DNA of 25,776 nt from a virus, in the IMG/VR virus record IMGVR_UViG_3300002460_000147, positions 1 through 25,776 of that record; one strand, given 5' to 3'. The position numbers and the translations under genes are program-made. The notes under the pieces were generated by a model. That model saw only the letters and a list, made by a program, of their open reading frames with translations, was not told the DNA's origin and did not search any database. This document shows positions 8,472 through 24,543 of the stretch, in pieces (positions within the stretch are counted from its first letter, which is position 1; the number at the start of each line of letters is the position of its first letter).

Positions 8472-8492
8472 GACGTAAAGGCCATTGCCGTC

Positions 8493-8502
8493 CTGTTACC
8501 CA
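8493..8502 (+). repeat. CTGTTACCCA repeat D
   Basis: Fourth exact copy, in the 79-bp gap after 8471. Followed by a weak GGCG-AACG-TGCC hairpin. The next ATG is at 8551, 48 bp downstream. Confidence 0.75.
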
Positions 8503-8550
8503 TGGCGAACGTGCCTAGCGTCTCGGATCGAAAGGTTGTAGACTAGCGCC

Positions 8551-10933: not shown

Positions 10934-11719
10934 ATGCTCCTACTCACCAGCACCTCCGATCTTGTTCAAGTGGTCACCGCGCAAGCGGTCACGACGGATG
11001 TCCATGCATCCTGGGTGGACAACGCCGCAGGAACCATCACGCCGGGCCGGACCAACACTGCCATTAGCGGTGCCACGACGACGACCGTCGTGGCTTCCCC
11101 AGGGGCCTCGACGCAGCGGAACCTACAAACCCTCGTCGTTCGCAACAAACATGCCTCATCGTCCGTCACCGTCACGGTCCAGCACTTCGACGGCACGACG
11201 ACCGTCGAGCTGGTCAAGGTCACCCTGGCAGCGGGCGAGGAACTGCAATACATCGACGGGGCGGGGTGGGCCGTGCTCGATACCAACGGTGCCCTCAAGG
11301 TGAGCGAGGCCGGGTCAATCGCGACGCAGGCGGACATGGAGTCCGGGAGTTCCTTGACCACGTTCGTTACCCCAGGGCGGCAGCATTTTCACCCCTCGGC
11401 GGCCAAGTGCTGGCTCGTGTGCGGGGTGGCGGGCAACATCCTGGGCAGCTACAACATCACCAGTATCGCTGATACCGGGACCGGCGTCGTCACGATCACC
11501 ATCGCCACCGACTTCTCAGGGACCACCTATGCCTGCGTGGCGCAGGTGCAGGCGACGGCGACCACTTGGGCAGTTGCGAATGCGCGTGAATGTCACGTTC
11601 GTAGTGCCACCATCGCGGTAGGCAGCGTTGCGCTGGACTGCATCGATAACACGGCAACCACGAACCTGGTCAAAGACCCGACCACCTGGCACATGGCCGC
11701 CTTTGGAGATCACGCATGA
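10934..11719 (+). CDS. Phage structural protein, probably tail or virion surface
   Basis: 261 residues from ATG 10934, preceded by AGGAG at 10924-10928; the longer upstream frame overlaps the previous gene and is rejected. Thr/Ser/Val-rich and beta-predicted throughout. The C-terminal domain (about residues 150-260) has HFHPSAAKCWLVCGVAGNIL and GSYNITSIADTGTGVVTITI, the pattern of a domain common in phage fibre and baseplate-type proteins. No enzymatic motif. It is a plausible virion surface component and so a potential acceptor for the adjacent sugar locus (inference). Confidence 0.6.
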   Translation: MLLLTSTSDLVQVVTAQAVTTDVHASWVDNAAGTITPGRTNTAISGATTTTVVASPGASTQRNLQTLVVRNKHASSSVTVTVQHFDGTTTVELVKVTLAAGEELQYIDGAGWAVLDTNGALKVSEAGSIATQADMESGSSLTTFVTPGRQHFHPSAAKCWLVCGVAGNILGSYNITSIADTGTGVVTITIATDFSGTTYACVAQVQATATTWAVANARECHVRSATIAVGSVALDCIDNTATTNLVKDPTTWHMAAFGDHA

Positions 11720-12228
11720 CCAAGCCGCCGGCGACCCTACGGATCGCCCTGACGTGTGCCGATGGTACCTTGGCGCTCATGACCTTCGTGACGACCGAAT
11801 ACCGGGCTGACGGATCGGTCGCGTGGTCGCGGCTGGCGACGCGGCAAGCGGTAGACGCTGAGATTGCCCGTGCGTCCGTGTCGTTCGATCCTAGGCACGT
11901 GCCGGTCGTATCGTGGCGCTTCATCGAATGGAGTGACGTCCCCGAAGACCGGACCTACCGGAACGCTTGGCGCGATCGTGGCGCTGGCCCGATCGAGCAC
12001 GACATGGGGCAGGCTCGGGAGTTGCATCGAGTGTTGCTGCGCGAATGGCGGGCCCCACAACTTGCCGAACTGGATCTCGCCTATCTCCGGGCCGATGAGA
12101 CAAACGATGCCCCACTCAAAGAGCAGATCGCCCAGCAGAAGCAACGGCTGCGCGATGTCACCGCTGACCCGCGTATCAATGCAGCCCTAACCATCGAGAT
12201 GCTGAAGGCGATCGAGCTTCCAGCATGA
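11716..12228 (+). CDS. Conserved phage hypothetical protein
   Basis: 170 residues, ATGA-coupled on both sides. The N-terminal half is beta-like. The C-terminal half has RTYRNAWRDRGAGPIEHDMG followed by AREL, then LAELDLAYLRADETNDAPLK and EQIAQQKQRLRDV. This combination occurs in uncharacterised proteins encoded between tail-fibre-type genes in many environmental phages. It may be an assembly chaperone, judged only from position and size. Confidence 0.55.
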   Translation: MTKPPATLRIALTCADGTLALMTFVTTEYRADGSVAWSRLATRQAVDAEIARASVSFDPRHVPVVSWRFIEWSDVPEDRTYRNAWRDRGAGPIEHDMGQARELHRVLLREWRAPQLAELDLAYLRADETNDAPLKEQIAQQKQRLRDVTADPRINAALTIEMLKAIELPA

Positions 12229-13106
12229 GCCTCAAGTATCTCTATGACCAGACGCTCGGGATCAAGGGTTGGTTTGATCCGACCTTAGAGAGTGAAGCGT
12301 GGTTTGACGGCGAACTCGGTGCGGCGGCCGGTGGTGTTACGCAGAAATCCGGTAGCGCCACGCTCGATGCGAGCGCTACGATCAGTGCCGCCTCTCTACG
12401 GGTTCGTGCCGTCGCTGGGACGTTTGCCGGGGTAACTGTTCCCGATGTTCGCTACACCAGGCTACGGTACGAAGACGACATTCTGCCCGGAGTAGCCAAT
12501 CTTACCGGGACGTTGATTCGCCTGCGTTTGGAGGTGGGCCTAGTCGCTGGCGTTGCCACGCTGGTCCCATCATATCTACGGATCCGGCTGGAGGATGGAG
12601 CACTCAGTGGCGTAGCGACCATCGACGCCACTGTGGTGCGCGGGCGTCTCCCGATTGCGCAACTGACAGCTCCTGCCACGCTCAGCGCCTCGACTACGCG
12701 ACTGCGGTTAGAGGATGCCGGCCTGTCTGGCGTCGCCGAAGTTGAGCCCACGTTCGTGCGCCTGCGCTTGCGTGAGGCTCAAGCCTTAGGCGCAGCCACC
12801 ATCCTTGCGAGCCCCACGGTCGTAAGCGGGGGCGCGCAGAAATCAGCTACCTGCTCCCTGGCCGGCCTTGCCACACTTGTGGCTAGCCCGACTGTTGCTG
12901 CGGGCTATGTCGGGCCAGCCCCGCGCCCGAGTGGTGGCATGGTAGGTTCGCCGCGGAACCCGCCGCACAAGTGGTGGCAGAAGACCCGACCTGCCAAGCC
13001 GAAGGTCAAGGACGAAGAGGAGGACGAGGAGCCGGCCTTCAAGCTAGCGGAGGACGACTCTGAGGAGTTGGTTGCTGTTGTGATGGCGATGGAGGACGAC
13101 TACTAG
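12225..13106 (+). CDS. Structural protein with seven 20-residue repeats and acidic tail
   Basis: 293 residues. The N-terminus KGWFDPTLESEAWFDGEL is a pattern seen in phage structural proteins. From about residue 59, seven consecutive 20-residue units follow, for example RLRYEDDILPGVANLTGTLI, RLRLEVGLVAGVATLVPSYL and RIRLEDGALSGVATIDATVV. Period and alternation suggest a beta-solenoid fibre. A Pro/Gly stretch and a strongly acidic end (KDEEEDEEPAF, then EDDSEELVAVVMAMEDDY) finish the protein. Its stop TAG shares bases CTAG with the stop of the convergent HisF-like gene. It is a good candidate for the protein decorated by the sugar pathway, but this is inference. Confidence 0.65.
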   Translation: MSLKYLYDQTLGIKGWFDPTLESEAWFDGELGAAAGGVTQKSGSATLDASATISAASLRVRAVAGTFAGVTVPDVRYTRLRYEDDILPGVANLTGTLIRLRLEVGLVAGVATLVPSYLRIRLEDGALSGVATIDATVVRGRLPIAQLTAPATLSASTTRLRLEDAGLSGVAEVEPTFVRLRLREAQALGAATILASPTVVSGGAQKSATCSLAGLATLVASPTVAAGYVGPAPRPSGGMVGSPRNPPHKWWQKTRPAKPKVKDEEEDEEPAFKLAEDDSEELVAVVMAMEDDY

Positions 13107-13846
13107 AGCCGCACGTCGTAGCCCCGCGCCTTGAGATACTTCTTCGCTTCCAGGGGCGTCTGTTCGGTAAACAACCACATGGCACCAGCGGCGACAGCAG
13201 AAGCGCCAGCGTCGATGGCCTGGGCGAAGTGCCCGTAGGTGCCTGCCCCACCAGAGGCGATGATGGGACAATCTGCGGGATGAGGTGGCAAATGTGCGAG
13301 TTCTGGGTGTATGCCAGACCAGAACTTCAGTGCATCAACATCATATCCACGCATCGTACCATCACGCTTAACAGACTGGACCATTAACTCGCCTATCGTG
13401 CCGGCCACCCATGCATGGGCGCCTAGAGCTGAAGCCGTACTAGCCCAATCGTAGTCCACACAACCAATCAATACCTGTGCCCCGAATGTCTCCGCAATCC
13501 GTCCAGGTAAGCCACCATCGCCCTTCCATACATCGAGGGCGGTTCGGATGCTTACCTTGTCTGCCCCCGCCCGGAGCAGGTCCCGCACGTCCTCCACCGA
13601 CTTGACGCCCCCGCCGACCGTGAGCGGGACGAAGCACTTCTCCGCGAGCTGTTCCACCAACCCGAAGTTGGGCCGCCGGCCTTCTTTGGTTGCGGTGATG
13701 TCTAGGAACAGGATCTCGTCTACCTCCCGCATCTGAAACACGTTGATGGCTTGCAGAGGATGGCCGACGGAGCGCCAGGCGTCGAAGCCCACGCCCTTGA
13801 CCAGCGTCTGGCCGTTCCAGAGCAGCGTGGCGATGACGCGAATCAT
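13103..13846 (-). CDS. HisF-like subunit of an imidazole-type amidotransferase, acetamidino-sugar branch
   Basis: 247 residues, TIM barrel. Matches HisF over GFDAWRSVGHPLQAINVFQM, VDEILFLDITATKEGR, VPLTVGGGVKSVEDVRDLL and CPIIASGGAGTYGHFAQAI (phosphate-binding loops). The usual N-terminal catalytic Asp of HisF (Asp11, in CLDVKDG) is replaced: the segment reads TLLWNGQTLVKG. That change is also seen in non-histidine HisF paralogues that pass ammonia from a HisH partner to a WbpG/PseA amidotransferase. No other histidine genes are present and all three partners are here, so a sugar-modifying role is likely. It is the last gene of the minus-strand operon; ATGA overlap with the gene upstream. Confidence 0.8.
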   Translation of the reverse strand: MIRVIATLLWNGQTLVKGVGFDAWRSVGHPLQAINVFQMREVDEILFLDITATKEGRRPNFGLVEQLAEKCFVPLTVGGGVKSVEDVRDLLRAGADKVSIRTALDVWKGDGGLPGRIAETFGAQVLIGCVDYDWASTASALGAHAWVAGTIGELMVQSVKRDGTMRGYDVDALKFWSGIHPELAHLPPHPADCPIIASGGAGTYGHFAQAIDAGASAVAAGAMWLFTEQTPLEAKKYLKARGYDVRL

Positions 13847-14088
13847 CAGACTCGCAAATGAACAACGGTCTTAGCAGGGACAATTAGCTTATCACGCAAC
13901 CGTAGAATGTGGGCCCACTGGGTCCCATCTTCTCGAATCTCCACCGCGAGAATGAGGCACCGATCATCGTGCCCATCGGCCACACCGTCTTCCTTCCCCA
14001 GACCACAGCCGTACCCAATAAGGCCGTTCTCTAACCGATACATTGCGGGTTGTCCAACTGGTAACCGCGTAAGGTTGATACCGTTCAC
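13846..14088 (-). CDS. Hypothetical 80-residue protein in the Pse operon
   Basis: Beta-rich, with YRLENGLIGYGCGLGKEDGV and CLILAVEIREDG, then HILRLRDKLIVPAKTVVHLR. ATGA-coupled on both sides between the HisF-like gene and a 54-residue zinc protein. No family recognised. Its composition looks like a phage accessory gene rather than a sugar enzyme. Confidence 0.55.
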   Translation of the reverse strand: MNGINLTRLPVGQPAMYRLENGLIGYGCGLGKEDGVADGHDDRCLILAVEIREDGTQWAHILRLRDKLIVPAKTVVHLRV

Positions 14089-14249
14089 AGTTTCGCCCCG
14101 CAGATACCACAGATGAAGTTCGGTACCAAATCATCCATGCACGTTGTCTCGATAGGGCGATGGCCCTGCTTCGCGCATTCACGCACCCGTATCTTAGCTT
14201 CTAGTTCAACGAACGCCTCTCGTAGTTCCTCTTCCGTCCAGGCGTTCAC
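14085..14249 (-). CDS. 54-residue Cys/His micro-protein
   Basis: GTG start at 14249 overlapping the HisH-like stop as GTGA; reads MNAWTEEELREAFVELEAKI then RVRECAKQGHRP, TTCMDDLV and ICGICGAKL. Four Cys and one His could form a zinc site. The longer upstream frame is rejected because it overlaps the HisH-like gene. Role unknown; interleaved in the Pse operon. Confidence 0.5.
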   Translation of the reverse strand: MNAWTEEELREAFVELEAKIRVRECAKQGHRPIETTCMDDLVPNFICGICGAKL

Positions 14250-14842
14250 AATTTCAGAAACTCCCGCAGGAAGGCGAGGCCCGCCTTGCCGCTTTTCTCG
14301 GGATGGAACTGCACGGCCCAGAGATTGCCACTCAGGACCATAGCCATGAACATCTTGCCTGCGTATTCCGCGAAGGCCCCACCCCAAGGCGCCTTGTTAT
14401 CCATGATGGGTTGATCGGGGTGCAAGGCATAGCTGTGGCAGAAGTAGAAGCCCTTGGCAGCCTCATGTTCTGGGTTCGCCGCCGATGGGAGCACGATGTT
14501 AGACCAGCCAATGTGCGGCAAACGTGGCCCCTCCAACCGGCGACAGACACCCTCAATCCATCCCAAGCCCTTGACGCCGGGTGCTTCTTCGGAGCCCTCG
14601 CACATCAACTGCATCCCGAGGCAGATACCGAGGATAGGGATGCCAGCGATCCAAGCTTCCGTGAGCCCGCTGCGAATGTCTGGTGGGATGTCAGAGAAAG
14701 CGCCCTGTCCTGGTACGATAATGTGTGTTGCCCTGCCCGGGGTCCGTGCCCACCACGGGTCACCGCCAACTTCTTTGACAGCATTCGCCACAGAAGCAAG
14801 ATTACCGCCGCCCAGGTCAATGATCGAGACCTGAGGCTTCAT
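14246..14842 (-). CDS. HisH-like glutamine amidotransferase, acetamidino-sugar branch
   Basis: 198 residues, class I glutaminase. Nucleophile Cys74 sits in LGICLGMQLMCEGSEE, and His180 and Glu182 in VQFHPEKSG complete the triad. The HisH signatures IDLGGGNLASVANAV, PGQGAFSD and RLPHIGWSNI are present. It probably hydrolyses glutamine and channels ammonia through the HisF-like partner to the PseA/WbpG-type enzyme at 15109. ATGA-coupled at its start to a membrane micro-gene and GTGA-coupled at its end. Histidine biosynthesis is unlikely given the neighbours. Confidence 0.85.
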   Translation of the reverse strand: MKPQVSIIDLGGGNLASVANAVKEVGGDPWWARTPGRATHIIVPGQGAFSDIPPDIRSGLTEAWIAGIPILGICLGMQLMCEGSEEAPGVKGLGWIEGVCRRLEGPRLPHIGWSNIVLPSAANPEHEAAKGFYFCHSYALHPDQPIMDNKAPWGGAFAEYAGKMFMAMVLSGNLWAVQFHPEKSGKAGLAFLREFLKL

Positions 14843-14931
14843 CGGCGAGATCGCGGGAGATAGCCTAGCAATACAAATGCGGCCGCAGCAAGGATTGCCA
14901 GGACCACCAACAGAGCATCCATCCTATTCAT
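14839..14931 (-). CDS. 30-residue single-pass membrane micro-protein
   Basis: Reads MNRMDALLVVLAILAAAAFV then LLGYLPRSRR: one clear transmembrane helix with a basic C-terminal end. ATG 14931 overlaps the previous stop (ATGAATAG) and the end overlaps HisH as ATGA; ATG 14922 is an alternative start. May be translated mainly to keep ribosomes coupled, or may recruit the operon's enzymes to the membrane. Unproven. Confidence 0.45.
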   Translation of the reverse strand: MNRMDALLVVLAILAAAAFVLLGYLPRSRR

Positions 14932-15112
14932 TGCGGAACCACTCAACATGGCCGCACTGGTCGCACCGCACGAGCCGCCACTTCTCCGGCTGCGCGCCCC
15001 CGAGGCCGTAATTCCGGTAGTTGCCATGGGCGGGAATCACCATCGGCTGGTAGGAGCCTAGCAAACACCAGCGGCAAAGGCGCGGAACTTCCTTCTCGGG
15101 AATCGGCGTCAT
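14924..15112 (-). CDS. 62-residue zinc-ribbon protein
   Basis: ATG 15112 is coupled to the amidotransferase stop as ATGA, so the longer frame from 15208 is rejected. Two Cys pairs, LCRWC (residues about 13-17) and CDQCGHVEWF (about 51-60), form a classic zinc ribbon, with a Gly-Tyr-Asn loop between. Such small ribbons are frequent in phages. Why it sits between PseA- and HisH-like genes is unknown. Confidence 0.6.
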   Translation of the reverse strand: MTPIPEKEVPRLCRWCLLGSYQPMVIPAHGNYRNYGLGGAQPEKWRLVRCDQCGHVEWFRNE

Positions 15113-16293
15113 GGTTCGTTCAGCCTTTCCGGTGACCCGTCCGGCCGGCGGATAAGTGCCCCTTGCGGATCTGTTTTGAAGAGGGCGCGGTTGGTGAAGC
15201 GGTCGCAAATGGCATCAAACTTAGGCATTGGAAAACCCAAAAATGCCAGGACCGCTGAAAGCGGTGTAGCGAGGTACGTCGTGGGATACGCACCATCGTA
15301 TCGTCGGCAAATCTGTATCGCCGCTTGTCGGGAAAGACGCCCTCGGCGGATATGCATACTCGCAATGTCCGTGGCTCGGCCGAACGCGAACTTAAGGTAC
15401 TTGAAGTAGTCGTGGATGCCCGTGTGCGCGTTGTCGAGGTTTTCATAGTTTGCTAGTGATCCTTCCACCAGATGCGGGTAGGTCTCCAAGCCGTGAGCCT
15501 GCGCGACGAGTTGGTTACGCCAGCCGTCCCACGGAACATAGTACCCGAGGAACAGGCCCGTCACCTGAGCATGTGCCAGTTCCTCCTGGCTTGGATACGT
15601 GTAGATCCACAGGTCACGGGCCGTCACTCCTTCCTGGCCGATGAGATCGGAGACCCGAAGCCCCAAGAGGCCGCCGAATTCCTCTAGCCAGCGCCGGTCG
15701 AGCGTCGGGTTTTCCTGCGCCTGGGCCGGCCCCCCGTACTCGTTCTGGCTATTTTCGCCCCAGATGATGAGCGGGATCTGGTACTGGACCGCCAACCGGA
15801 CGGGGACAGTGAAGATGCGGACGTGCTCGGGCCAGGAGATGTCTCCCACGGTTTCCAAAGCGATGCGGTTGAGCTTCCGTGAGACCACGGGGTTGCAGGT
15901 GATCTCGACATAGTCCACGCCCTGAGCTTTCAAGTTCTCGATGTTCCGCCGGCCCAACTCGGTGAGGTGGTCCGTCGTCGCAGTGACGACCAGGGGCTTG
16001 AAGCCGAGTTCCAGGATGGTGAGCACCTGGAAGTGGGAATCCTTGCCCCCGGAGCTGGGGACGAGGCAATCGTAGCCCGAAGCGGGATTCCGGTGCTTCT
16101 CGATGAGCGCCACTAACTCCTGACGGCGGGCATCCCAATCCACGTCCGACCGCCGTTCGTAGGCCCGGCAGGCGGAACACACGCCCTCCTCGTCAATACG
16201 GAGATCGGGCTTCGTCGCCGGCATGACGCATTTCTGACAGTAGCGGATCGTGGTGTTTCTCCTTTCTAGTGTGTTGTCTGGTTCCACATCCAC
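15109..16293 (-). CDS. pseA: N-acetyl sugar amidotransferase (PseA/WbpG family)
   Basis: PP-loop ATP-pyrophosphatase-type enzyme that, with HisH/HisF partners, converts an acetamido group of a nonulosonic acid or amino sugar to acetamidino (as for Pse5Ac7Am). Zinc Cys pairs are YCQKC and CSAC; the PP-loop is VPSSGGKDSHFQ; LIIWGENSQNEYGG and NLDNAHTGIHDYFKYLKFAF are family-like. The listed start is GTG 16293, the longest permitted. However, homologues begin near RYCQKC, and a strong AAAGGAG site (16265-16259) lies 7 bp before ACG 16251 and 10 bp before ATC 16248, suggesting a non-standard start and a 380-residue protein. It follows a 59-residue gene whose TAG abuts the AAAGGAG. Confidence 0.85.
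   Translation of the reverse strand: MDVEPDNTLERRNTTIRYCQKCVMPATKPDLRIDEEGVCSACRAYERRSDVDWDARRQELVALIEKHRNPASGYDCLVPSSGGKDSHFQVLTILELGFKPLVVTATTDHLTELGRRNIENLKAQGVDYVEITCNPVVSRKLNRIALETVGDISWPEHVRIFTVPVRLAVQYQIPLIIWGENSQNEYGGPAQAQENPTLDRRWLEEFGGLLGLRVSDLIGQEGVTARDLWIYTYPSQEELAHAQVTGLFLGYYVPWDGWRNQLVAQAHGLETYPHLVEGSLANYENLDNAHTGIHDYFKYLKFAFGRATDIASMHIRRGRLSRQAAIQICRRYDGAYPTTYLATPLSAVLAFLGFPMPKFDAICDRFTNRALFKTDPQGALIRRPDGSPERLNEP
16249..16265 (-). promoter_or_regulatory. Strong ribosome-binding site pointing to a non-AUG start
   Basis: On the minus strand AAAGGAG is followed by AAACACC and then ACG ATC CGC TAC TGT, with no ATG, GTG or TTG at the right distance. The site directly follows the TAG of the preceding gene. 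Either ACG or ATC is used as initiator, or a mutated ATG has been rescued by the upstream GTG. Confidence 0.5.
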
Positions 16294-16445
16294 TCATACA
16301 CATGTTGCTGCTTTGCTTCTTCAACTGCCCCTTGGAGCCATTCATCGAACGTTTGGGTGCCACCATGCTCTAGCCAAAGAGCATAGCGTTCCTCCTGGCT
16401 TTCGGGCATGCCATATTCTTCAAGCCACCGTTGGACTCGATTCAT
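16266..16445 (-). CDS. 59-residue hypothetical protein in the Pse operon
   Basis: Starts at ATG 16445, overlapping the cytidylyltransferase by 26 bp, and ends at TAG 16268-16266 just before the PseA ribosome-binding site. Reads MNRVQRWLEEYGMPESQEER then YALWLEHGG, FDEWLQGAVEEAKQQH and YEWMWNQTTH. Acidic, helical and Trp-rich. The fit between neighbours and its protein-like composition support it as real. No family recognised. Confidence 0.6.
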   Translation of the reverse strand: MNRVQRWLEEYGMPESQEERYALWLEHGGTQTFDEWLQGAVEEAKQQHVYEWMWNQTTH

Positions 16446-17154
16446 CCTTGCGCTCCATCTCTGGGTGCTCTTTCAGGAACGCCAGCAATTCCCGTGTTGT
16501 AGGATGCGGTGGCGTGCAGTCGATCATCGCGGCCAGCTTGCAGAACCACTCATAATCCTCTTGGGTGTCTAATAGCCAGCGTAGATCTGGGCGATTCGTG
16601 GATGCCTTCATCGGCAGGCAGGCAACGTTGGCCCGTATCCAGGGGGTGACGTGTTCCCGCTCCAAGGGTTCCGTGGCGTAGAGATCGGCATCGATGAGGG
16701 CCCACATGGGGAACGCCTCGACATCCAAGCCCCGGGGTTCGGTGCGTGGGAACAGGCCCCGCGCTGTAGGAACCCCGCAGTTGGCCACATAGCAGTTGTG
16801 CTGTGCAGCCCCGTAGGCGCAGGTCCACACCATCCGCGGGTCGACGAAGGGACAGTCACCCGTTAAGCGCACTACGATATCGGCATGCTCCGCCATGGCG
16901 GCGGCGGCCATACGGCCGAGGACATCATCCTCTGGGCCGGCGTAGACGGGCATTGGACCAAAGGCCCGGGGCCAAAGAGCATCGATGATTTCCCATTGCT
17001 GGCCGTCCGGAACAGCAAGGGGCGTCTTGAATCCCGTCAGTCCTGCACGGGAAATCGTGTGGCTGATAGCGGGCACCGGCCCGATAGGCTTCAGCACCTT
17101 GCCTGGCAACCGGCTGCTAGTGAGCCGCGCCTGGATGATGACGACGGTGTTCAT
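16420..17154 (-). CDS. pseF: SpsF/PseF-type cytidylyltransferase (probable CMP-Pse synthetase)
   Basis: 244 residues. Sugar nucleotidyltransferase of the SpsF style: VVIIQARLTSSRLPGKVL (residues 4-21) is the NTP-binding start and VRLTGDCPFVDP (95-106) the metal/sugar loop; LDVEAFPMWALIDAD and EREHVTPWI are also typical. In Pse pathways such an enzyme activates the free acid with CTP to give CMP-Pse, the donor for glycosyltransferases. The neighbours make that substrate likely, but the sequence alone does not fix it. ATGA overlap with the small gene before it. Confidence 0.75.
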   Translation of the reverse strand: MNTVVIIQARLTSSRLPGKVLKPIGPVPAISHTISRAGLTGFKTPLAVPDGQQWEIIDALWPRAFGPMPVYAGPEDDVLGRMAAAAMAEHADIVVRLTGDCPFVDPRMVWTCAYGAAQHNCYVANCGVPTARGLFPRTEPRGLDVEAFPMWALIDADLYATEPLEREHVTPWIRANVACLPMKASTNRPDLRWLLDTQEDYEWFCKLAAMIDCTPPHPTTRELLAFLKEHPEMERKDESSPTVA

Positions 17155-17351
17155 GATGATGCGATGTCAGGGAAATGGAGCACAACCAGCGCGGCGCTGC
17201 TCACCAGTTGCCTAAACGCCTCGAATTGCCGCTGGCGCTCTGGATCACCGTCTTGTGGAAGCACTTCTAAGCCAGCGACCAAGCGTTCCTGCAAATCTCG
17301 TCCTACGGCAACACGACGATCAGGCAGGGCGTCGATCTCTTCAGATGTCAT
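17151..17351 (-). CDS. 66-residue hypothetical protein
   Basis: ATG 17351 coupled as ATGA to the GT-like gene; the longer frame to 17912 is a shadow of that gene. Helical and acidic, with MTSEEIDALPDRRVAVGRDL and RQRQFEAFRQLV, then AALVVLHFPDIASS. No family recognised. Tight coupling to the cytidylyltransferase suggests it belongs to the pathway or is passenger DNA of phage type. Confidence 0.55.
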   Translation of the reverse strand: MTSEEIDALPDRRVAVGRDLQERLVAGLEVLPQDGDPERQRQFEAFRQLVSSAALVVLHFPDIASS

Positions 17352-18058
17352 CGCCGCTCCACGAGATGGAATTCCTCGAACCCGTACTGCGTGTTCGATT
17401 GCACCAAATGGAAGATCTTCATTAGGTGGCTCTTCTCCGGGATGCGAATCGCCACTCCCCGTGCGGCTGCCTGGCCCAGCCAGAACTCGATACAGGCCCG
17501 TGCCGAGATCGGCTCCCCGCTTTCGGTCATGTTGAGCCCGTAGAGCGCGATTTCCTCGAAGCCTTCCCGCAGCGCCAAGGCAATCATCCAGTCTACCGTG
17601 CTGGCGTGATAGACCCCGAACGGCAGTTGTTCGACGTCGGCCTTCGGGAAGGCGACCGTGGTGGGGCAGTCGTCCCACACGGCCGGCGTGTAGATGGGCA
17701 ATGTGCGTTGCATCCGGGCCCATGCCTGATGGCTGGGCCAGTTGCGGTACCAGTCGTCCTTCATATGGTCCGGATGGTGGAGGTTGAACCACCGGGTGAA
17801 TCCCCGAGCGGGTACGTCGATGTATTCGTGGAGGTTGTTCAAGCCCCAGAACTCGTAGCTGCCATCGAGCCACGGCGCCTCGTAGATGGTATCGGCGAAG
17901 CCCACGAGGCACACCTTCCGCCGCCGCCCGTATGGACGGAGCCGTTCCGGCAGCGTGCTGGCGATGCCGAGTGGGCTGGGCCAGAGGAATGGTGGCTTGG
18001 GAAGATCTTCCACGATGTCGAAATCTCGCAGGATGATGCCTTCAATCGCGTCTACCAT
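17348..18058 (-). CDS. Candidate Pse transferase, GT42/Maf/MptE-like pattern (paralogue 1)
   Basis: 236 residues; start ATG 18058 overlaps the methyltransferase end by 7 bp. VCLVGFADTIYEAPW (49-63) resembles the N-terminal nucleotide-binding loop, with EFWGLNNLHEYI (69-80), RWFNLHHPDH (89-98), ASTVDWMIALALREGFEEIA (152-171), LYGLNM (172-177) and ACIEFWLGQAAARGVAIRIP (188-207). The segment '...AxALxxGxxEIxLYGxxM' is how CstII-type sialyltransferases and Maf/MptE-like proteins form their Rossmann core. Maf proteins transfer Pse to flagellin. It is paralogous to the protein at 19646. The transferase function is an inference. Confidence 0.5.
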   Translation of the reverse strand: MVDAIEGIILRDFDIVEDLPKPPFLWPSPLGIASTLPERLRPYGRRRKVCLVGFADTIYEAPWLDGSYEFWGLNNLHEYIDVPARGFTRWFNLHHPDHMKDDWYRNWPSHQAWARMQRTLPIYTPAVWDDCPTTVAFPKADVEQLPFGVYHASTVDWMIALALREGFEEIALYGLNMTESGEPISARACIEFWLGQAAARGVAIRIPEKSHLMKIFHLVQSNTQYGFEEFHLVERR

Positions 18059-18639
18059 GATTTCTCCATGAGCCACCAGGTGCAGTTGTCGAATCCCCAG
18101 TCCGTGCTCCAATGGCCGAACCGCATCACCCTGAGCTCCGGAAACCGGCGCAGGTATTCCTGATCGAACGGCCGCTTCCAGAGCATGTCGTCATGACCGC
18201 GATAACCCGTGACCGCCGTTTCGATGTCGGCTCGGTATTCGATGGCGACGAGATAGCGGCGTGCGACGCGGTGGATTTCCCGCAAGGCCGCATCCAGTTC
18301 GTCAGGCGGGATGTGGATCAGCAGGCCCGCCGTAAAGACCAGGTCGAACGATTGGTCGGCGAAGGGGATATTGGTTGCTGTGCCATCGACAGTCGGTGGC
18401 CAGGCGATGTCCCGGGCGTAAGCATTCGGCTCAACGCCAAGCAGGAGCCAGGAAGCGTTCAGTTCCTGCAAGGCGCGAAGGTTAGCCCCTTTATTGGAGC
18501 CCACCTCCAGGATGCTCTGGATCTCGAGGCCGGCCAGCATCGTGCGCCATGCCTCAAGCCGGGAACGCCAATCTACATCGTTGCGATCAGTGTAGTCATC
18601 ACCGAACTGACCGCGCCAGGCATCGAGTTGGTGGGTCAC
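18052..18639 (-). CDS. SAM-dependent methyltransferase of the Pse-cluster type
   Basis: 195 residues from GTG 18639, overlapping the PseC stop as GTGA; the alternative GTG 18645 adds two residues. Rossmann methyltransferase with motif I ILEVGSNKGANL (43-54), the acidic turn LLGVEPNA, motif FDLVFTAGLLIHIPPDELDA and a Trp-rich C-terminus. The N-terminus WRGQFGDDYTDRN matches the 'pseudaminic acid biosynthesis-associated methylase' family (TIGR03587) as I remember it. The substrate may be the Pse sugar or an intermediate; it is unproven in the family as well. Confidence 0.7.
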   Translation of the reverse strand: MTHQLDAWRGQFGDDYTDRNDVDWRSRLEAWRTMLAGLEIQSILEVGSNKGANLRALQELNASWLLLGVEPNAYARDIAWPPTVDGTATNIPFADQSFDLVFTAGLLIHIPPDELDAALREIHRVARRYLVAIEYRADIETAVTGYRGHDDMLWKRPFDQEYLRRFPELRVMRFGHWSTDWGFDNCTWWLMEKSW

Positions 18640-19649
18640 TGGCACTGCCCCACGACTTCTTTGACCGTGCCGGCGACATACTCCACTTCGGCATCCGTCA
18701 GCGTCGGAAACATGGGGATCGAGAGCGTCGAGGCCGCGAACGACAGGGCGTTAGGCAACGGCAGCAGTGCCGGGTAATGGATGGCGGTACCTATGTGCGC
18801 GTGCCGAAGGAGCAACTGGATCTCGTCCCGTCGCTCCGGTTTCACGAGAATCTGGTAGAGATGATAGACGCTGCCGGGAGGATGCACTACGAAACGCACA
18901 GTCCCCCGGAAGTACTCGTCGTAGTACTGGGCGATGAAGCGCCGGCGCTGAATGTTCTCTGGCAAGCGCTGAAGTTGCGACAGGCCGAGCGCGGCGCTCA
19001 TTTCCGGCATTCTCATGTTGAAGCCAGCCCGCCATCGGGTGGCGCCTGATCGACCGTGGTTTACCATCGCTCGGACGACGGTGGCTATCACTTCGTGATT
19101 CGTGACCACCGCCCCGCCTTCACCACAGGCGACATGCTTCGCGGGATGGAAACTGAAACACGCTGCCAGGGTGTGACCGGGATAGACCGCGCCAAGACTG
19201 TGGGTCGCATCAATCAGTATGCGCCCATACGTAGCGGCTGACCGCCCATCGAACGGCACGCCACCCAACGTGACGGGAAGACTGATCCCGCCAACGCTGT
19301 TCGGTGGATACCATGCTGGCCATCGCCCGGTCGCTGGGTCCACGTCGAGAAACTGCACAGCATCGAGGTTGCTTCCAAGATAGAGATTGATCGTTGCCGC
19401 AAACGTGATGGGCGTCGTCACGATGTGCGAGGCAGAACATGTACCGGCGCTCAGGTACAAAGCGCTCGCCCCGCTGTTAGTGCAGACTGCATACTTGGCA
19501 TCGCACAGCGTTGCTAATGCGGCCTCGAACTCTTCCACCTTGGGGCCCTGGGTCAGCCACTTGGACCGCAACACGCCGAGCACGGCCGCTTCATCGTCGG
19601 CGGTGATCTGATGCCGAGCGTAGGGGATCAGCTCCGTGGGCTGGATCAT
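18636..19649 (-). CDS. pseC: PseC-like PLP-dependent aminotransferase
   Basis: 337 residues; ATG 19649 is ATGA-coupled to the preceding gene, so the longer frame is rejected. DegT/DnrJ/EryC1 family. PseC converts the 4-keto product of PseB into UDP-4-amino-4,6-dideoxy-beta-L-AltNAc. Lys171 in FSFHPAKHVACGEGGAVVTN should bind PLP, with Asp147 (LIDATHSLGA) contacting its ring; N-terminal VLRSKWLTQGPKVEEFE and TPITFAATIN are PseC-like. Slightly shorter than most PseC proteins (about 370-390 residues), largely in the middle of the large domain. GTGA-coupled to the methyltransferase. Confidence 0.85.
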   Translation of the reverse strand: MIQPTELIPYARHQITADDEAAVLGVLRSKWLTQGPKVEEFEAALATLCDAKYAVCTNSGASALYLSAGTCSASHIVTTPITFAATINLYLGSNLDAVQFLDVDPATGRWPAWYPPNSVGGISLPVTLGGVPFDGRSAATYGRILIDATHSLGAVYPGHTLAACFSFHPAKHVACGEGGAVVTNHEVIATVVRAMVNHGRSGATRWRAGFNMRMPEMSAALGLSQLQRLPENIQRRRFIAQYYDEYFRGTVRFVVHPPGSVYHLYQILVKPERRDEIQLLLRHAHIGTAIHYPALLPLPNALSFAASTLSIPMFPTLTDAEVEYVAGTVKEVVGQCQ

Positions 19650-20536
19650 GTGCCGCTGGGCATCATCGTGGATTCTTCCTCCAGCGCCACCTCTGGAGCC
19701 CGTTCGTCGGTCCTGATCTTGTGGCTGTGGGGCATCGGGGCTCGGGCTACAGCGGAACCCTCGTCTCCAGGGAGCCAGGTGTTGATCTCCCAATCCAACG
19801 TTGCCTTCCGGCCGATCAGTTGCTGGAGCCGGTTGTTGGCCTCTGCGATCTGGGCTTGCATTTGCTTGATGCCCTGGTTCGTGTTACTCTGCTCGTATTC
19901 CAGCTTGGTGCGCCAGACGTTGCCGGCGTAGTCGCCATAGACGAACGCCGATTTCAGGATGTCCGCTTCGTTGGGAAGCGTGACGGGAATCCCAGAGAAC
20001 TCGGCAGCGGCGATCCAGTACTCGACGCTGGGGCGCTGGTAGCCGTACTCGTTGTTGATCCCTCCTCCACCGCCGGTCATCATATCCACCCCGTAAATGC
20101 CGATCTCGGTAGCGCCTTCCATGATCGCTAGGGCGATCTCGAAACTGATGGTGTTGGTGAAGTACTTGAGGCGGCCGCCGAGGTGCTTGTTGAAGTGTTT
20201 GTAGATTTCCTTATAGGGGTAGACGGTGGCTTCCGGGAAGTCTTCAGGTCGGGCCTCACTGAGGTAGACCCGCGCTCCCTGTTGGGCCAGTTTCCGCAGG
20301 ACCGGCATGTGGGCCCGGTCTACGGAGTAGGTCGTCGGCTTCCCGTCGGGTCCCTGTTCGTTCCACGGATGCATCTCGAACCATCGGACCCGTCTGGGGT
20401 CAATCGGCGGGAGTTGCTGCATGTAGAGATCATTGAGACACCAGATCTCCCAATCGGCGTGCTCCAATCCCCAGTGGGCCTTCTGGCGATGGGGCGTGTA
20501 GCCCACGATGTCTACTTTGAGAGGCGGCTTACGCAT
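19646..20536 (-). CDS. Candidate Pse transferase, GT42/Maf/MptE-like pattern (paralogue 2)
   Basis: 296 residues; ATG 20536 overlaps the PseB stop by 8 bp. It shares with the 17348 protein the blocks VDIVGYTPHR (8-17), EIWCLNDLYMQQ (30-41), RWFEMHPW (51-58), TISFEIALAIMEGATEIGIY (129-148), GVDM (149-152) and SVEYWIAAAEFSGIPVTLP (170-188), in the same order. A coiled coil (about 211-250, EYEQSNTNQGIKQMQAQIAE) and a charged tail are extra. The pattern suggests a Rossmann-type transferase fold. Its place between PseB and PseC suggests use of the Pse donor. A structural role cannot be excluded. Confidence 0.5.
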   Translation of the reverse strand: MRKPPLKVDIVGYTPHRQKAHWGLEHADWEIWCLNDLYMQQLPPIDPRRVRWFEMHPWNEQGPDGKPTTYSVDRAHMPVLRKLAQQGARVYLSEARPEDFPEATVYPYKEIYKHFNKHLGGRLKYFTNTISFEIALAIMEGATEIGIYGVDMMTGGGGGINNEYGYQRPSVEYWIAAAEFSGIPVTLPNEADILKSAFVYGDYAGNVWRTKLEYEQSNTNQGIKQMQAQIAEANNRLQQLIGRKATLDWEINTWLPGDEGSAVARAPMPHSHKIRTDERAPEVALEEESTMMPSGT

Positions 20537-21506
20537 GATGGTCCGGGGGTAAAAGGGTTCGCATTTCTTCAACGGAGATCCAGCGGGTGTTCTGGTCCGA
20601 ACTGTAGACCCAATCGTGGGGGACCGGCTCGGCGATGGCCGGCAATCCGCCCCAGTAGCGGATGGCTGGGTTCACGATGTAGAATCGCCGCTGACCGTCC
20701 GTCACGACCGTCCGGGTGGTTTCCTCGGCATTCAGCAACTTCTCATGCAGCTTCTCCCCACCAGGCCGCAGGTCGGTGACGAAACGGGGATGGTTGGGCG
20801 CGACCGCTTCGGCGAGATCCATGATACGCATCGACGGGAGGTCGGGAACGAAGAGTTCCCCACCATCCATCAAGGCAAGCGCGTCTTGGATCAACTGTAC
20901 CGCCTGGGGCATCGTGATGAAAAACCGGGTACACCGTTCGTCGGTGATGTTGATCGGCAGTCCTGCCGCGACAGCTTCGCGCCACAGCTCTACCACGGAG
21001 CCACGGGAACCGATGACGTTACCGTAACGGACGACGGAGACGCGGGTACCCTGCGGGTAACTGTAGACGTTGGACATGACCGCCAGCCACTCGGCGCACA
21101 TCTTGCTGGCCCCGTAGATGTTGGTGGGTTCGACCGCCTTGTCGGAGGACACTACTAAGACCTTCTTCACGCCGGCTTTGATAGCGGCGTGAATCACGTT
21201 CTGGGTGCCGATCACGTTGGTTTTGATGACCTCGGAGGGATCATACGCCACCCGGTCGATGCGTTTCAGGGCGGCGGCATGAATCACGGTATCGATGCCG
21301 TGGAAGGCTAGCTCCAGGCGCTCGGGATCGCGCACGTCGCCTAGGAACCAGCGGAGTCGGTCGTCCGTGAGTTCCTTGGCGAGCATGGCCTGCTTCCATT
21401 CGTCTCTGGATAGGATGGCGATCCGGGAGACTGGCGTGGCGAGATAGTGCCGGATCAGCGCCCGACCGAGGGAACCCGTGCCACCAGTAATCAGGACGGA
21501 GTTCAT
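20529..21506 (-). CDS. pseB: PseB, UDP-GlcNAc-inverting 4,6-dehydratase
   Basis: 325 residues from ATG 21506 (MNSVLITGGTGSLG). The first Pse step: NADP-dependent dehydration of UDP-GlcNAc with inversion at C5. GGTGSLG (8-14) binds cofactor. The catalytic set Asp122-Lys123, Tyr131 and Lys135 in SDKAVEPTNIYGASK has exactly the spacing of H. pylori FlaA1/PseB (132-133, 141, 145). VVRYGNVIGSRGSVV, FFITMPQAVQLI and GGELFVPDLPSM are also typical. First gene of the 15-gene minus-strand operon. No strong ribosome-binding site is seen; a large hairpin lies 34 bp upstream. Confidence 0.92.
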   Translation of the reverse strand: MNSVLITGGTGSLGRALIRHYLATPVSRIAILSRDEWKQAMLAKELTDDRLRWFLGDVRDPERLELAFHGIDTVIHAAALKRIDRVAYDPSEVIKTNVIGTQNVIHAAIKAGVKKVLVVSSDKAVEPTNIYGASKMCAEWLAVMSNVYSYPQGTRVSVVRYGNVIGSRGSVVELWREAVAAGLPINITDERCTRFFITMPQAVQLIQDALALMDGGELFVPDLPSMRIMDLAEAVAPNHPRFVTDLRPGGEKLHEKLLNAEETTRTVVTDGQRRFYIVNPAIRYWGGLPAIAEPVPHDWVYSSDQNTRWISVEEMRTLLPPDHHA

Positions 21507-21670
21507 GGATGCGATATGCCTGTAAGCTCTCAACGGAAAGCGGGCCGCCCCAGCACTTGCAGCTGGAACGGCCCGCGTGACCTTTGCTACGGGTTCTGGG
21601 GCCTCTTCCCTTGCCCCTAGGGTATAGTCTGGCGCGAATTGCCGCAAGCCCATACTTTGGGAGTCAGGCT
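21507..21670. promoter_or_regulatory. Divergent control region of the Pse locus
   Basis: 164-bp gap between PseB (minus) and the PseH-like gene (plus). It must hold or receive promoters for both directions. It contains a large hairpin (21540-21576) and, towards PseH, TATAGT at 21623-21628 as a possible -10 without a clear -35. No strong sigma-70 match is visible towards PseB. A GGGAG ribosome-binding site (21659-21663) precedes ATG 21671. Confidence 0.5.
21540..21576. promoter_or_regulatory. Large GC hairpin upstream of pseB
   Basis: Outer arms GCGGGCCG and CGGCCCGC pair perfectly. After a small CC/AA internal loop, CCAGC and GCTGG continue the stem over a 7-base loop. No T-run follows on either side, so a simple terminator is unlikely. 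An RNA leader element for pseB, or an operator, is possible. Confidence 0.65.
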
Positions 21671-22108
21671 ATGCTGATGCTGCGTCCCGCTATCATGGAC
21701 GACGCTCACTTCGTCTGGGAATGCCGGAACGATCCCGACGCACGGCGCGAGTCCCTGCATCCTGAGCCCATCCCGTTCAGCCACCACGCTGTCTGGTTCC
21801 GCCAAGCGCTGACCAATCCCCTGCGCCGGATCTGGATTGCCGAAACCGCCGATCAGACAGCGGTAGGCTATGGGCGGCTCGATTGGGAAACCGAAGGCGC
21901 AGACGCGACGATCAGCGTGGCGGTGGCGCCCGCCTTACGTCGCCTGGGTTTCGGCGTGCAGATCATTCAACTGACGACGAGCATGTCTAGAGCCTCAGTG
22001 TGGGCCACTATCCGCACAACGAACATTGGGTCATTGCGGGCCTTCGCCGCGGCGGGATACCAACCGATCGTCACCGGGGATGTGCAGCAGTGGAAGTTCA
22101 GCCGGTGA
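21671..22108 (+). CDS. pseH: PseH-like GNAT N-acetyltransferase
   Basis: 145 residues from ATG 21671, 7 bp after GGGAG. GNAT fold: LRPAIMDDAHFVWECRND at the start is typical of the PseH/RimJ style; acetyl-CoA loop VAPALRRLGFGVQIIQ (85-100); TNIGSLRAFAAAGYQP (117-132) closes the fold. In Pse synthesis PseH acetylates the 4-amino group of the PseC product. Slightly shorter than typical (about 160-180). Divergent from PseB and GTGA-coupled to the synthase. The substrate is assigned from neighbours. Confidence 0.75.
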   Translation: MLMLRPAIMDDAHFVWECRNDPDARRESLHPEPIPFSHHAVWFRQALTNPLRRIWIAETADQTAVGYGRLDWETEGADATISVAVAPALRRLGFGVQIIQLTTSMSRASVWATIRTTNIGSLRAFAAAGYQPIVTGDVQQWKFSR

Positions 22109-22854
22109 AGATCGCGGGGCGAGAGATCGGCGCCGGCCAGCCCTGCTTCATCGTGGCCGAAATTAGCGGCAATCACAATGGGAGTTTCCAGCGGGCCATC
22201 GCGCTGATTCAGGCAGCCTCACAGGCTGGTGCCGGCGCGGTCAAGTTCCAGGCATTCACCATGGAAGAGATCCTGGCGCTCCGAGGCACCGGACCAGCCC
22301 CGCCACCGTGGGAGGCCGTGACCCTTCCAGAGCTCTATGCCAAAGTGATTACCCCGGCCGCCTGGTTCCCCGCCCTGTTCGCGGAGGCGATCCATCGTGG
22401 GCTGATCCCCTTCTCGTCTGTGTTCGGGACTGATAGTCTGGCGATGCTGGAACAGCTGCATTGCCCGGCCTACAAAATCGCCAAGGCCGACCGGGGCCAG
22501 TTGAATTTACTCCGCGCCGTGCAGGCGACGGGGAAACCCGTCCTCGTGAGTGGACGCGACATCTACTGTCCTGGGGGCTATCCCTGCACGCCCGAGGAAT
22601 TGCACCTAGCGAAGCTGAGCTTTTCTTGGCTGAACCTGCATACGCGCGTTAGTGGAGTAGCATGGCTCGGGCTCTCCTGCCATTGTCCTGATCCGCTGGT
22701 GGGTCCCTTGGCCGTCGCCTACGGAGCGCATTACCTTGAAGCACATCTGACGTTGGACGATGGGCCGGCGACCATGGACGACTGCGTGAACTTCACGGCT
22801 TCCGCGTTTGCTGAATTGGTGCGGCTCACCCGCAAAGCCGAAGTGATGCGCTAA
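22105..22854 (+). CDS. pseI: Short PseI/NeuB-family nonulosonic acid synthase
   Basis: 249 residues from GTG 22105 (GTGA overlap). NeuB-type TIM barrel condensing PEP with a 6-deoxy-diacetamido hexose. CFIVAEISGNHNGSFQRAIA (14-33), GAGAVKFQAFTMEE (42-55) and AYKIAKAD are typical. The two metal-binding His (His215/His236 in N. meningitidis NeuB) are matched by His193 (LSCHC, usually LSDHS) and His214 (EAH, usually EKH), spaced identically. It is about 100 residues shorter than usual: the C-terminal SAF/antifreeze domain is absent and the region before GYPCTPEEL is contracted. The stop overlaps the minor head gene as TAATG. Activity is plausible but untested. Confidence 0.75.
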   Translation: MKIAGREIGAGQPCFIVAEISGNHNGSFQRAIALIQAASQAGAGAVKFQAFTMEEILALRGTGPAPPPWEAVTLPELYAKVITPAAWFPALFAEAIHRGLIPFSSVFGTDSLAMLEQLHCPAYKIAKADRGQLNLLRAVQATGKPVLVSGRDIYCPGGYPCTPEELHLAKLSFSWLNLHTRVSGVAWLGLSCHCPDPLVGPLAVAYGAHYLEAHLTLDDGPATMDDCVNFTASAFAELVRLTRKAEVMR

Positions 22855-23813
22855 TGCCCACCACCCGCCGCGGTCCTAGAGCGTATTTCACCGAACATGC
22901 GGTGGCGGATCGCTTCGCGCCCGACATGCGACGTGCGGTCCTGGAAGCAATTCAACGCTCCCGCCGCCGGCTGTCGCTGGACAGCTTCACCGCACGCTGG
23001 TCGCAGGGGCCGGAAGCCCTCTTCAACGCCCTGCCCTGGCGGCAGCTCGAATTGGACTGGTTCGATGGTTGGCGCTTGGCCTTGTTGCCCACGGTGCAGG
23101 CGGCGATGCGGGCGCAACTTAAGAATCTACGGATCGAGAAGGCCAGCGAACCAGTTAGTCAGCTGGGATTTAGGCTGGATCTCACCAATCCCCGAGCCAT
23201 CCGCTGGGCCGAAGACCACGCCGCGGAACTCGTGGTGCAACTGTCCGAAGAGACGAAAGCCAACATCCGGCGCACCATCGCCGACATGTACCTCAAGGGT
23301 GTCTCCCCTCGGGAGGCGATGCGGATTCTCCAGCGCCAACTTGGGCTGTCTGCCAGAGACGGTCGGGCCCTCGACGGATTGCGGCGCCGCCTGGAAGTCG
23401 AGAACGCCAAGCGGATCGTGGAGAACCGGAAACCGCTGCCCGTGGATCGACTGGATGAGGAGGTAGACCGCTACGCCAACCGCTTACTCCGTCACCGGGC
23501 GGAGGTCATTGTCCGTACCGAGAGTATTCGCGCCTCGGCCGAAGGCCAGCAAGAATTGTGGACCCAGGCACAGGAACAGGGCTATCTGCAACCAGCGGAT
23601 ACCCGGCGGGCATGGCTGATAACGCCTGATGAGCGGCTGTGTGACATTTGCGCTCCCCTGGCCGCCCATAACCGGCTGGTCGGGTTGGAAGAACCCTTTC
23701 TGGCCGGGGATGGCTCAGTGGTTCTGACACCCCCAGCGCACCCGCAGTGCCGGTGCAGCGTCGGGCTGGTCTTTTCCGATGCGGAAGGGAATTTCCGCCA
23801 CCCGCAAGCGTAG
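22854..23813 (+). CDS. Minor head protein, Mu gpF / SPP1 gp7-like
   Basis: 319 residues. Helical N-terminal two-thirds with the MuF signature region LDEEVDRYANRLLRHRAEVI followed by VRTESIRASAEGQQELWTQA, and a C-terminal CDICAPLAAHNRLVG with HPQCRCSVGLVF, the usual Cys/His end of the family. Such proteins lie inside the prohead near the portal and normally follow the portal gene directly. Here more than 12 kb separate them, mostly the Pse locus. Translationally coupled to PseI by TAATG, so it depends on the PseH-PseI transcript or on read-through. Confidence 0.8.
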   Translation: MPTTRRGPRAYFTEHAVADRFAPDMRRAVLEAIQRSRRRLSLDSFTARWSQGPEALFNALPWRQLELDWFDGWRLALLPTVQAAMRAQLKNLRIEKASEPVSQLGFRLDLTNPRAIRWAEDHAAELVVQLSEETKANIRRTIADMYLKGVSPREAMRILQRQLGLSARDGRALDGLRRRLEVENAKRIVENRKPLPVDRLDEEVDRYANRLLRHRAEVIVRTESIRASAEGQQELWTQAQEQGYLQPADTRRAWLITPDERLCDICAPLAAHNRLVGLEEPFLAGDGSVVLTPPAHPQCRCSVGLVFSDAEGNFRHPQA

Positions 23814-23937: not shown

Positions 23938-24543
23938 GTGCCGTTTGGCGACTACAGTTCCTTCGAGGATTGCGTAGCGCAGAACCAGCAGGCTGATGAT
24001 CCCGAAGCCTACTGTGCCGAAATCCAACGCACCATCGAAGGAAAATCCACCGCTGGCAGTATCGAGTTGACGCGGGATGAAGTCCGGAAACTCTGCCCCT
24101 CCTGCGCCGACCGGATGGATAGCCTCAAGATCACGACTCTCAAGCTCCCGATCGACAAACAGCGATTCACGGTTGCCAAGCTGGATGAAGCCCAACGCCT
24201 CGTGTTCGGATGGGCTTCAGTCGCTATTAAGACCGATGACCTTCTGGTGGACCGCCAAGGGGACATGATTCCGCCCGAGGTCCTTGAAGAGGCGGCCTAC
24301 GATTTCGTTGAGCATTCCCGGATTGCCAATGAGATGCACCAGGGCGGTCCGATCGGGGTTCTCGTTGAATCCCTCATGGTGACGCCCGAGAAGCTGGAGG
24401 CGATGGGGCTGATGCGGAAATCCGCACCGAAGGTTGGCCTCTGGGTCGGCTTCCGCGTCTCCCCGCAGGTCTTTCGGAAGGTCAAGGCGGGCGAACTGCC
24501 CATGCTGTCCATTGAAGGGACGGCGCTCAAGGTGGCTGCCTGA
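23938..24543 (+). CDS. XkdF-like phage prohead serine protease
   Basis: 201 residues; GTG 23938 chosen because MPFGDYSSFEDCVAQN plus DDPEAYCAEIQ is the usual N-terminus of this protein in phages. The body RLVFGWASVAIKTDDLLVDR, QGDMIPPEVLEEAAYDF, EMHQGGPIGVLVESLMVTPE and GLWVGFRVSPQVFRKVKAGE matches the XkdF family, thought to cleave scaffold or capsid precursors during prohead maturation. It is followed by a scaffold-like gene with the next ATG overlapping the stop (TGATG). Confidence 0.75.
   Translation: MPFGDYSSFEDCVAQNQQADDPEAYCAEIQRTIEGKSTAGSIELTRDEVRKLCPSCADRMDSLKITTLKLPIDKQRFTVAKLDEAQRLVFGWASVAIKTDDLLVDRQGDMIPPEVLEEAAYDFVEHSRIANEMHQGGPIGVLVESLMVTPEKLEAMGLMRKSAPKVGLWVGFRVSPQVFRKVKAGELPMLSIEGTALKVAA

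Follow-up and report, generated by a model that had tools for sequence, protein, structure and literature searches.

Pseudaminic-acid-type sugar synthesis genes within a phage head-gene module: a candidate system for virion glycosylation

Phages that modify their own particles with sugars are represented by the mycobacteriophages Che8, Corndog and Myrna, whose own glycosyltransferases glycosylate capsid and tail-tube proteins according to PMC12363180 and PMC11256854 (both citing Freeman 2023). Phage-carried genes that act on pseudaminic acid (Pse) have been described as the epaA/epaB pair of an Acinetobacter baumannii prophage, which is responsible for 8-epimerisation of this sugar (PMC12053666), and in Caulobacter the flagellin receives pseudaminic acid in the cytoplasm via the soluble transferase FlmG (PMC7591256). 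The subject of the present analysis is a module of Pse synthesis genes (positions 13103-22854) in 25,776 bases of DNA of an uncultivated bacterial virus, hereafter the window, which comprises the entire IMG/VR record IMGVR_UViG_3300002460_000147; the module lies between a gene at 12225-13106 and the start of the MuF-like head morphogenesis gene at 22854. We consider it fairly probable that the phage makes a nonulosonate activated with cytidine monophosphate (CMP) and that two candidate transferases, designated GT1 and GT2, attach it to the phage's own head proteins in the cytoplasm. An earlier note on this DNA knew of no described system with such a layout; the open-access PMC literature likewise yielded no paper on a comparable nonulosonate pathway encoded by a phage, and the novelty is provisional.

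In order, the window comprises terminase, portal and head proteins, then the module, and finally MuF followed by a protease-like gene and more genes that probably encode head proteins (recognised flanks: TerL, portal, phrog_113; head protein, phrog_240; head morphogenesis protein, phrog_3517; head-maturation-protease-like gene). The surroundings had been named a head/tail module, of which the head part is present in the window, the tail genes being seen in relatives only. GNAT and PseI are encoded on the same (+) strand as the head genes, the remaining module genes on the - strand. Domain searches back every named module gene, several of them at family level only (scores and cut-offs are given in Table 1), and the earlier reading of a Pse gene set between phage structural genes is confirmed. 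PseA, the methyltransferase and HisH scored above the cut-offs of their families; the best NCBIfam matches of PseB and PseC, the PseI match of the synthase and the top matches of HisF (WbuZ and AglZ/HisF2) lay below theirs. All three members of the amidation set are present, with the amidotransferase and the glutaminase above and the HisF-like partner (TIGR03572) below the cut-off. For the synthase, the PseI model gave a higher score than the NeuB model (140 versus 99 bits), and the assignment of the GNAT protein in the PseH position is weak. The CMP synthetase clearly belongs to the cytidylyltransferase family, and the NCBIfam search gave no match of this protein to the PseF equivalog. Intact catalytic motifs were found in PseB (SSDK...YGASK), PseC (HPAK), PseA (SGGKDS), HisH (GICLGMQ/FHPE) and the CMP synthetase (QARLTSSRLPGK). 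The product is likely to be pseudaminic acid or a close relative, an identity that stays short of proven because several enzymes score below the equivalog cut-offs. No PseG, the hydrolase that removes uridine diphosphate (UDP) from the sugar, was detected among the searched module proteins: the description of the pathway as nearly complete holds, that as complete does not. A PseG hidden in GT1 or GT2 was rejected, as these proteins resemble GT42 and do not match the PseG model.

The most reduced enzyme of the set is PseI, which has no SAF domain at its C-terminus and is short of one helix of the barrel. The protein retains 12/12 positions that are invariant among 53 phage synthases; with residue roles assigned after NeuB, its phosphoenolpyruvate and metal sites are intact. 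According to the AlphaFold2 model, the barrel is intact (predicted local distance difference test score, pLDDT, 93.5) with the Campylobacter jejuni PseI (8h2c) as closest fold (TM-score 0.83-0.87). Phage synthases appear to have lost the SAF domain frequently, since 42 of the 84 recovered sequences have at most 310 residues (length being a proxy only for absence of the domain). That the enzymes are inactive relics, a doubt raised by the earlier note, was rejected on the basis of this model, the motifs and the substitution rates given below.

At both ends, the module is directly joined to structural genes, as the earlier note had read: the PseI stop overlaps the start of MuF by a single base in TAATG (22852-22856), and the HisF stop shares CTAG (13103-13106) with the opposed stop of the preceding head gene. 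Each of the two junctions was found again in other metagenomes, in contigs with an overall nucleotide identity of roughly 80-87%: the left one (head gene, then HisF) in contig 3300025309_000292 (L007/L011), the right one (PseI followed by MuF) in L003 and, for a stretch of 71 bases, in L018. Protein identity to the relatives amounted to 92% for both portal and MuF, with somewhat smaller values across much of the module (HisH 53%, PseI 78%, PseA 86%, PseB 90%); the C-terminal 57 codons of GT1 were 98% identical in L007. The ratio of nonsynonymous to synonymous substitution rates (dN/dS) ranged from 0.02 to 0.26 in the compared module genes (all but GT2, PseC, the methyltransferase and GNAT) and from 0 to 0.21 in head genes. 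The compared module genes are under purifying selection; in consequence, their enzymes have been kept functional.

Three near-identical relatives in IMG/VR end at the borders of the module, L012 and L013 with their right end exactly at the stop codon ahead of it, L017 with its left end exactly at the MuF ATG. As these ends coincide with exact stop and start codons, we infer that virus-catalogue software trimmed the module as "host" DNA; a variable cassette was rejected as the poorer fit. Such modules would therefore be under-counted, and virus catalogues may systematically miss cargo of this kind. The region between PseB and GNAT (21507-21670) is conserved about as well as good coding stretches and contains a long GC-rich inverted repeat (21540-21576), which is unique in the window and kept at positions 694-730 of L003 with one stem pair altered on both sides (compensatory change). 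This divergent region is perhaps a shared control element; a promoter consensus scan gave no excess over shuffles.

The proposed transferases GT1 and GT2 had no match in Pfam, NCBIfam or PHROG; they are paralogous (32% identity) and soluble by hydropathy. A GT42-like fold was anticipated from the spacing of conserved residues ahead of the fold search. The AlphaFold2 model of GT2 (pLDDT 81.7; alignment of 46 rows, window or viral sequences) retrieved sialyltransferases as 15/15 best PDB matches in Foldseek (CstI, CstII and a Pasteurella enzyme; E-values 7.7e-5 to 1.9e-3, probability 1.00). When the profile of the GT2 family was compared with 177,635 PDB sequences, GT42 enzymes ranked first, but with a non-significant E-value of 0.05; the similarity spans the central A-I..G..EI.L.G.D segment. 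By our reading, the invariant Asn47 of GT2 presumably takes the place of CstII Asn31; E175, Y176, Q179 and R180 are candidate catalytic residues. The family was present in 61 viral contigs versus one record among 84,980 cellular genomes, the latter being a small phage-like contig with a lysozyme-like gene; the cellular count is not exhaustive because the scan used a single peptide pattern. As far as these searches see, the GT2 family is phage-specific, and the membership of GT1 and GT2 in a large phage family of unnamed proteins is a new finding.

Members of this family were found near the synthase in 21/80 synthase-seeded loci compared with 2/79 MuF-seeded control loci (Fisher p 1e-5). In the reverse test, a synthase was located near the GT2 family in 6/61 versus 1/79 loci (p 0.027) and, after clustering of near-identical loci, in 6/45 versus 1/67 (p 0.016). 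Flank lengths were unequal between the synthase, GT2 and control sets; the comparison is conservative, as the control seeds came partly from GT2-bearing phages. At the level of whole contigs, a strong match to the family was present in 10 of 17 selected synthase contigs, of which eight were already known carriers and two (G020 and G023) newly added. In the annotated phage collection, the sole and weak match was a gene of the Microcystis phage Mvi-Yong1342-1 (L081, 19905-20708), annotated as "type 11 methyltransferase" and situated directly upstream of the terminase genes.

A search of IMG/VR with the phage PseI alignment revealed at least 333 contigs that encode a relative. In L084, L085 and L172, whose PseI is 36-38% identical to that of the window, PseC and PseB are oriented leftward (in L084 and L085 additionally the CMP synthetase), a sugar formyltransferase and PseI rightward, followed by MuF; in L085 and L172, protease-, scaffold- and later head-like genes come next (the last genes named by eye). 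In L083, the portal is followed by a PseG-like gene (52.7 bits versus a cut-off of 153), CMP synthetase, PseC and PseB in leftward and PseI in rightward orientation, at which point the contig stops. In the maximum-likelihood tree, the synthases of the window, L003, L082, L084, L085 and L172 form one clade (support 97/91). NeuB-type synthases are positioned between terminase and portal in L006, L100, L127, L129 and L139, and beside the portal in L004 and L111, together with NeuC and a relative of UDP-sulfoquinovose synthase. A terminase, portal, major capsid or MuF gene was located within 10 kb in at least 31/80 synthase-seeded viral loci, a minimum as only few query proteins were used. That the pathway is phage-borne, as first suggested from the window alone, is supported by the independent contigs, the purifying selection and the persistence of the layout in divergent relatives; the earlier note had missed that other phages share this layout, that its "candidate transferases" form a large phage family, and that PseG is absent. 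Among isolated phages, only weak synthase matches, no PseA match and one weak GT match were obtained; no plasmid relatives were found for 12930-17200, and the window MuF had no match in cellular genome contigs, where a prophage was sought to identify the host.

The formyltransferase (L084, 8707-9399; L172, 1992-2684) occupies the acyltransferase slot ahead of PseI, an exchange which suggests that the phage sugar has been chemically diversified. At 4918-5475 in L084 and at 5123-5680 and 6353-7273 in L085, both loci show deacetylase-like genes, recognised by eye from an AHPDDE motif, and L085 additionally has an ATP-grasp-type gene inside its synthesis cluster; further nonulosonate tailoring by these genes is possible. 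In L004, the UDP-sulfoquinovose-synthase relative (7754-8905; 414 bits versus a cut-off of 575) lies with NeuB, NeuC and CMP synthetase between portal and capsid genes, and L111 is alike; this set might make a sulfonated sugar. Long CMP-synthetase open reading frames were noted in L086, L097, L101, L102, L104, L113, L114, L119 and L135; L086 shows an unusual fusion of the CMP-synthetase domain with a glutamate-1-semialdehyde-aminomutase-like aminotransferase, next to which PseB, PseC and a nonulosonate synthase are encoded.

Table 1. Features of the window (scores in bits refer to NCBIfam models, with their cut-offs in parentheses where available). Between terminase and portal, the gene at 7163-7876 had no Pfam match.
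Feature	Position	Strand	Evidence
Portal protein, left context	8768..10549	+	phrog_113, E 1e-76; 92% identity in five contigs of other metagenomes
Head protein, 25.8% Ser+Thr, candidate glycan acceptor	10539..10925	+	phrog_240, E 5e-15
Protein among head genes, 24.1% Ser+Thr, candidate acceptor	10934..11719	+	L007 identity 94%
Fast-changing protein abutting the module	12225..13106	+	45% identity in L007 (tblastn) versus 92% for portal; dN/dS 0.21
HisF-type WbuZ/AglZ, amidotransferase partner	13103..13846	-	TIGR03572, 173 bits, below cut-off; dN/dS 0.26
HisH glutaminase	14246..14842	-	TIGR01855, 150 bits (105); Cys and His-Pro-Glu motifs intact
Small conserved Cys-rich (Zn-ribbon-like) protein	14924..15208	-	L007 identity 64%; Pfam Zn_ribbon only E 0.07
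PseA/WbuX N-acetyl-sugar amidotransferase (acetamidino modification)	15109..16293	-	TIGR03573, 311 bits (203); SGGKDS loop; dN/dS 0.12
CMP-sugar (nonulosonate) synthetase	16420..17154	-	Pfam CTP_transf_3, E 2e-14; motif; dN/dS 0.12
GT1, sialyltransferase-like, paralogue of GT2	17348..18112	-	32% identity to GT2
Pseudaminic-acid-associated methyltransferase	18052..18645	-	TIGR03587, 135 bits (112)
PseC-type aminotransferase	18636..19649	-	TIGR03588, 224 bits (424); Pfam DegT E 1e-60; start placed at MIQPTELIPYARH, open reading frame extends to 19793
GT2, GT42-like putative CMP-nonulosonate transferase	19646..20572	-	AlphaFold2 model, PDB fold matches
PseB-type UDP-GlcNAc (UDP-N-acetylglucosamine) 4,6-dehydratase	20529..21506	-	TIGR03589, 351 bits (408); motifs; dN/dS 0.08; start placed at MNSVLITGGTG
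Divergent intergenic region	21507..21670	.	Long inverted repeat 21540-21576; L003 identity 90%
GNAT N-acetyltransferase in PseH position	21671..22108	+	Pfam GNAT E 4e-7; TIGR03585, only 23.8 bits (93.1)
PseI-type nonulosonate synthase, 249 residues, without SAF domain	22105..22854	+	TIGR03586, 140 bits (340); AlphaFold2 model
MuF-like head morphogenesis protein, right context	22854..23813	+	phrog_3517, E 5e-45
Head-maturation-protease-like protein	23938..24543	+	phrog_33677, E 2e-8; top match phrog_1530 named DNA methyltransferase

In the pathway proposed for virion glycosylation, PseB and PseC would convert UDP-GlcNAc to an amino sugar that is N-acylated by the GNAT protein; because PseG is absent from the module, the UDP-removing step would have to be supplied by the host or by another phage gene. 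From the freed sugar and phosphoenolpyruvate, the short PseI would form by condensation a pseudaminic-acid-type nonulosonate, which the cytidylyltransferase would activate as CMP-sugar, with tailoring by PseA plus HisH/HisF (amidine) and by the methyltransferase. The soluble GT1 and GT2 with their GT42-like fold would then carry out the transfer in the cytoplasm, either ahead of head assembly or in its course. Ser/Thr-rich proteins are encoded on both sides of the module (the two listed in Table 1 and, to the right, 25277-25696 with 22.3%), and those head proteins beside it would be the likeliest acceptors; the benefit would probably be a shielded or altered particle surface.

Among the three functions put forward by the earlier note (virion glycosylation, disguise against host defences, conversion of the host surface), virion glycosylation appears best supported, based on the head-gene location, the phage-only sialyltransferase-like proteins and the absence of predicted membrane proteins; host-surface conversion remains its main rival. 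Indeed, PseI runs into MuF in the window lineage as well as in L084, L085 and L172, and no 19-residue segment of the module proteins exceeded a hydropathy of 1.6 except in HisH (1.82; marginal, and a soluble family). Several observations weigh against this preference. Besides the missing PseG, most module genes are opposite in strand to the head genes, so that expression at another time is possible; the TM-scores of GT2 to GT42 are only 0.34-0.48, all below 0.5, and the catalytic histidine of GT42 has no clear counterpart in GT2. No synthase is nearby in 55/61 GT2-family loci (windows of up to about 12.7 kb), and the family may therefore use other donors; conversely, several synthase-bearing phages lack a GT2 match.

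The strand arrangement, together with a divergent control region that is conserved, resembles that of moron genes and would also suit a conversion of the host surface, in which CMP-nonulosonate made in lysogeny or early infection modifies lipopolysaccharide, capsule or flagella and thereby blocks superinfection or alters receptors; known bacterial nonulosonates decorate surfaces of this type. We regard this as rather unlikely: no flippase, polymerase, ligase or membrane glycosyltransferase was found in the module (for flippase and polymerase, no family match in Pfam and NCBIfam), the transferase family is essentially phage-only, PseI is located in the head operon, and the fragmentary contigs of the close relatives gave no integrase, whereas some more distant carriers (G013, G015, G016) possess one.

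The low TM-scores, the unmatched histidine and the many GT2-family loci without a synthase could likewise mean that GT1 and GT2 are not transferases at all, their fold serving another task such as sugar binding, and that the end use of the sugar differs. As the top ranks by fold and by profile were sialyltransferases only, and both genes are encoded within a CMP-nonulosonate gene set, we consider this improbable. Still less credence is given to a mere topping up of the host pathway, in which the phage copies sustain the host's pseudaminic-acid-type supply in infection without new chemistry: the absence of PseG, which would need a host source, and the low score of the PseG-like gene in L083 would agree with it, but phage-specific transferases would then be unnecessary, and the relatives exchange acyltransferase for formyltransferase and add tailoring genes, which suggests selection for particular sugars. 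An assembly chimera, of which the earlier note had cautioned, or passing bacterial cargo is scarcely credible: the three contigs ending exactly at module gene boundaries would fit it, yet such ends also fit trimming of "host" genes, the independent junctions in other metagenomes reject a chimera, and the layout persists in relatives with strongly diverged PseI at dN/dS values well below 1.

If virion glycosylation is extended beyond the window, widespread tailed phages would decorate their virions with self-made sialic-acid-like sugars via a GT42-like family that arose or radiated in phages, with the sugar diversified between lineages (acetyl, formyl, amidine, methyl); in our judgement, the chances of this broader reading are evenly balanced. 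Virion glycosylation is already known, and the variant proposed for the window would add the synthesis of a sialic-acid-like sugar. If true, bacterial viruses make and use nonulosonic acids as virion sugars, a large set of unnamed phage proteins gains a testable role as a phage-specific transferase family, the recurrent sugar-synthesis genes in phage head modules are explained, and modules of this type can be lost from virus catalogues by being taken for "host" DNA. The question would then be the role of the sugar: shielding of the particle, avoidance of adsorption to debris or wrong cells, or lectin binding.

Compared with the bacterial Pse pathway (PseB-C-H-G-I-F plus PseA/HisH/HisF), the module shares the PseB, PseC, PseI, CMP synthetase, WbuX/PseA and HisH families with intact motifs, as well as the HisF2/WbuZ and Pse methyltransferase families. 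In contrast, it is set among phage head genes, lacks PseG, has a PseI without SAF domain and a GNAT protein only weakly similar to PseH, and contains phage-specific sialyltransferase-like proteins in place of the known bacterial transferases. With CstI and CstII of CAZy family GT42, GT2 has in common the model fold and the profile similarity of the central segment; it differs by a sequence similarity below significance, the histidine that is not evidently conserved, its restriction to phages and a long C-terminal helix. Like epaA/epaB, the module consists of phage-carried genes acting on pseudaminic acid, but the former are two genes that remodel a host capsule sugar without a de novo pathway. 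The Caulobacter FlmG system is similar in its logic, in that a soluble enzyme adds pseudaminic acid to a structural protein within the cytoplasm before this protein is assembled, its acceptor being a bacterial flagellin. With the mycobacteriophages, the window phage would share glycosyltransferases that act on its own structural proteins, here proposed from gene content; in comparison with the glycosyltransferases described in those sources, it also encodes most of the synthesis of an unusual nine-carbon sugar, and its putative transferases have a GT42-like fold.

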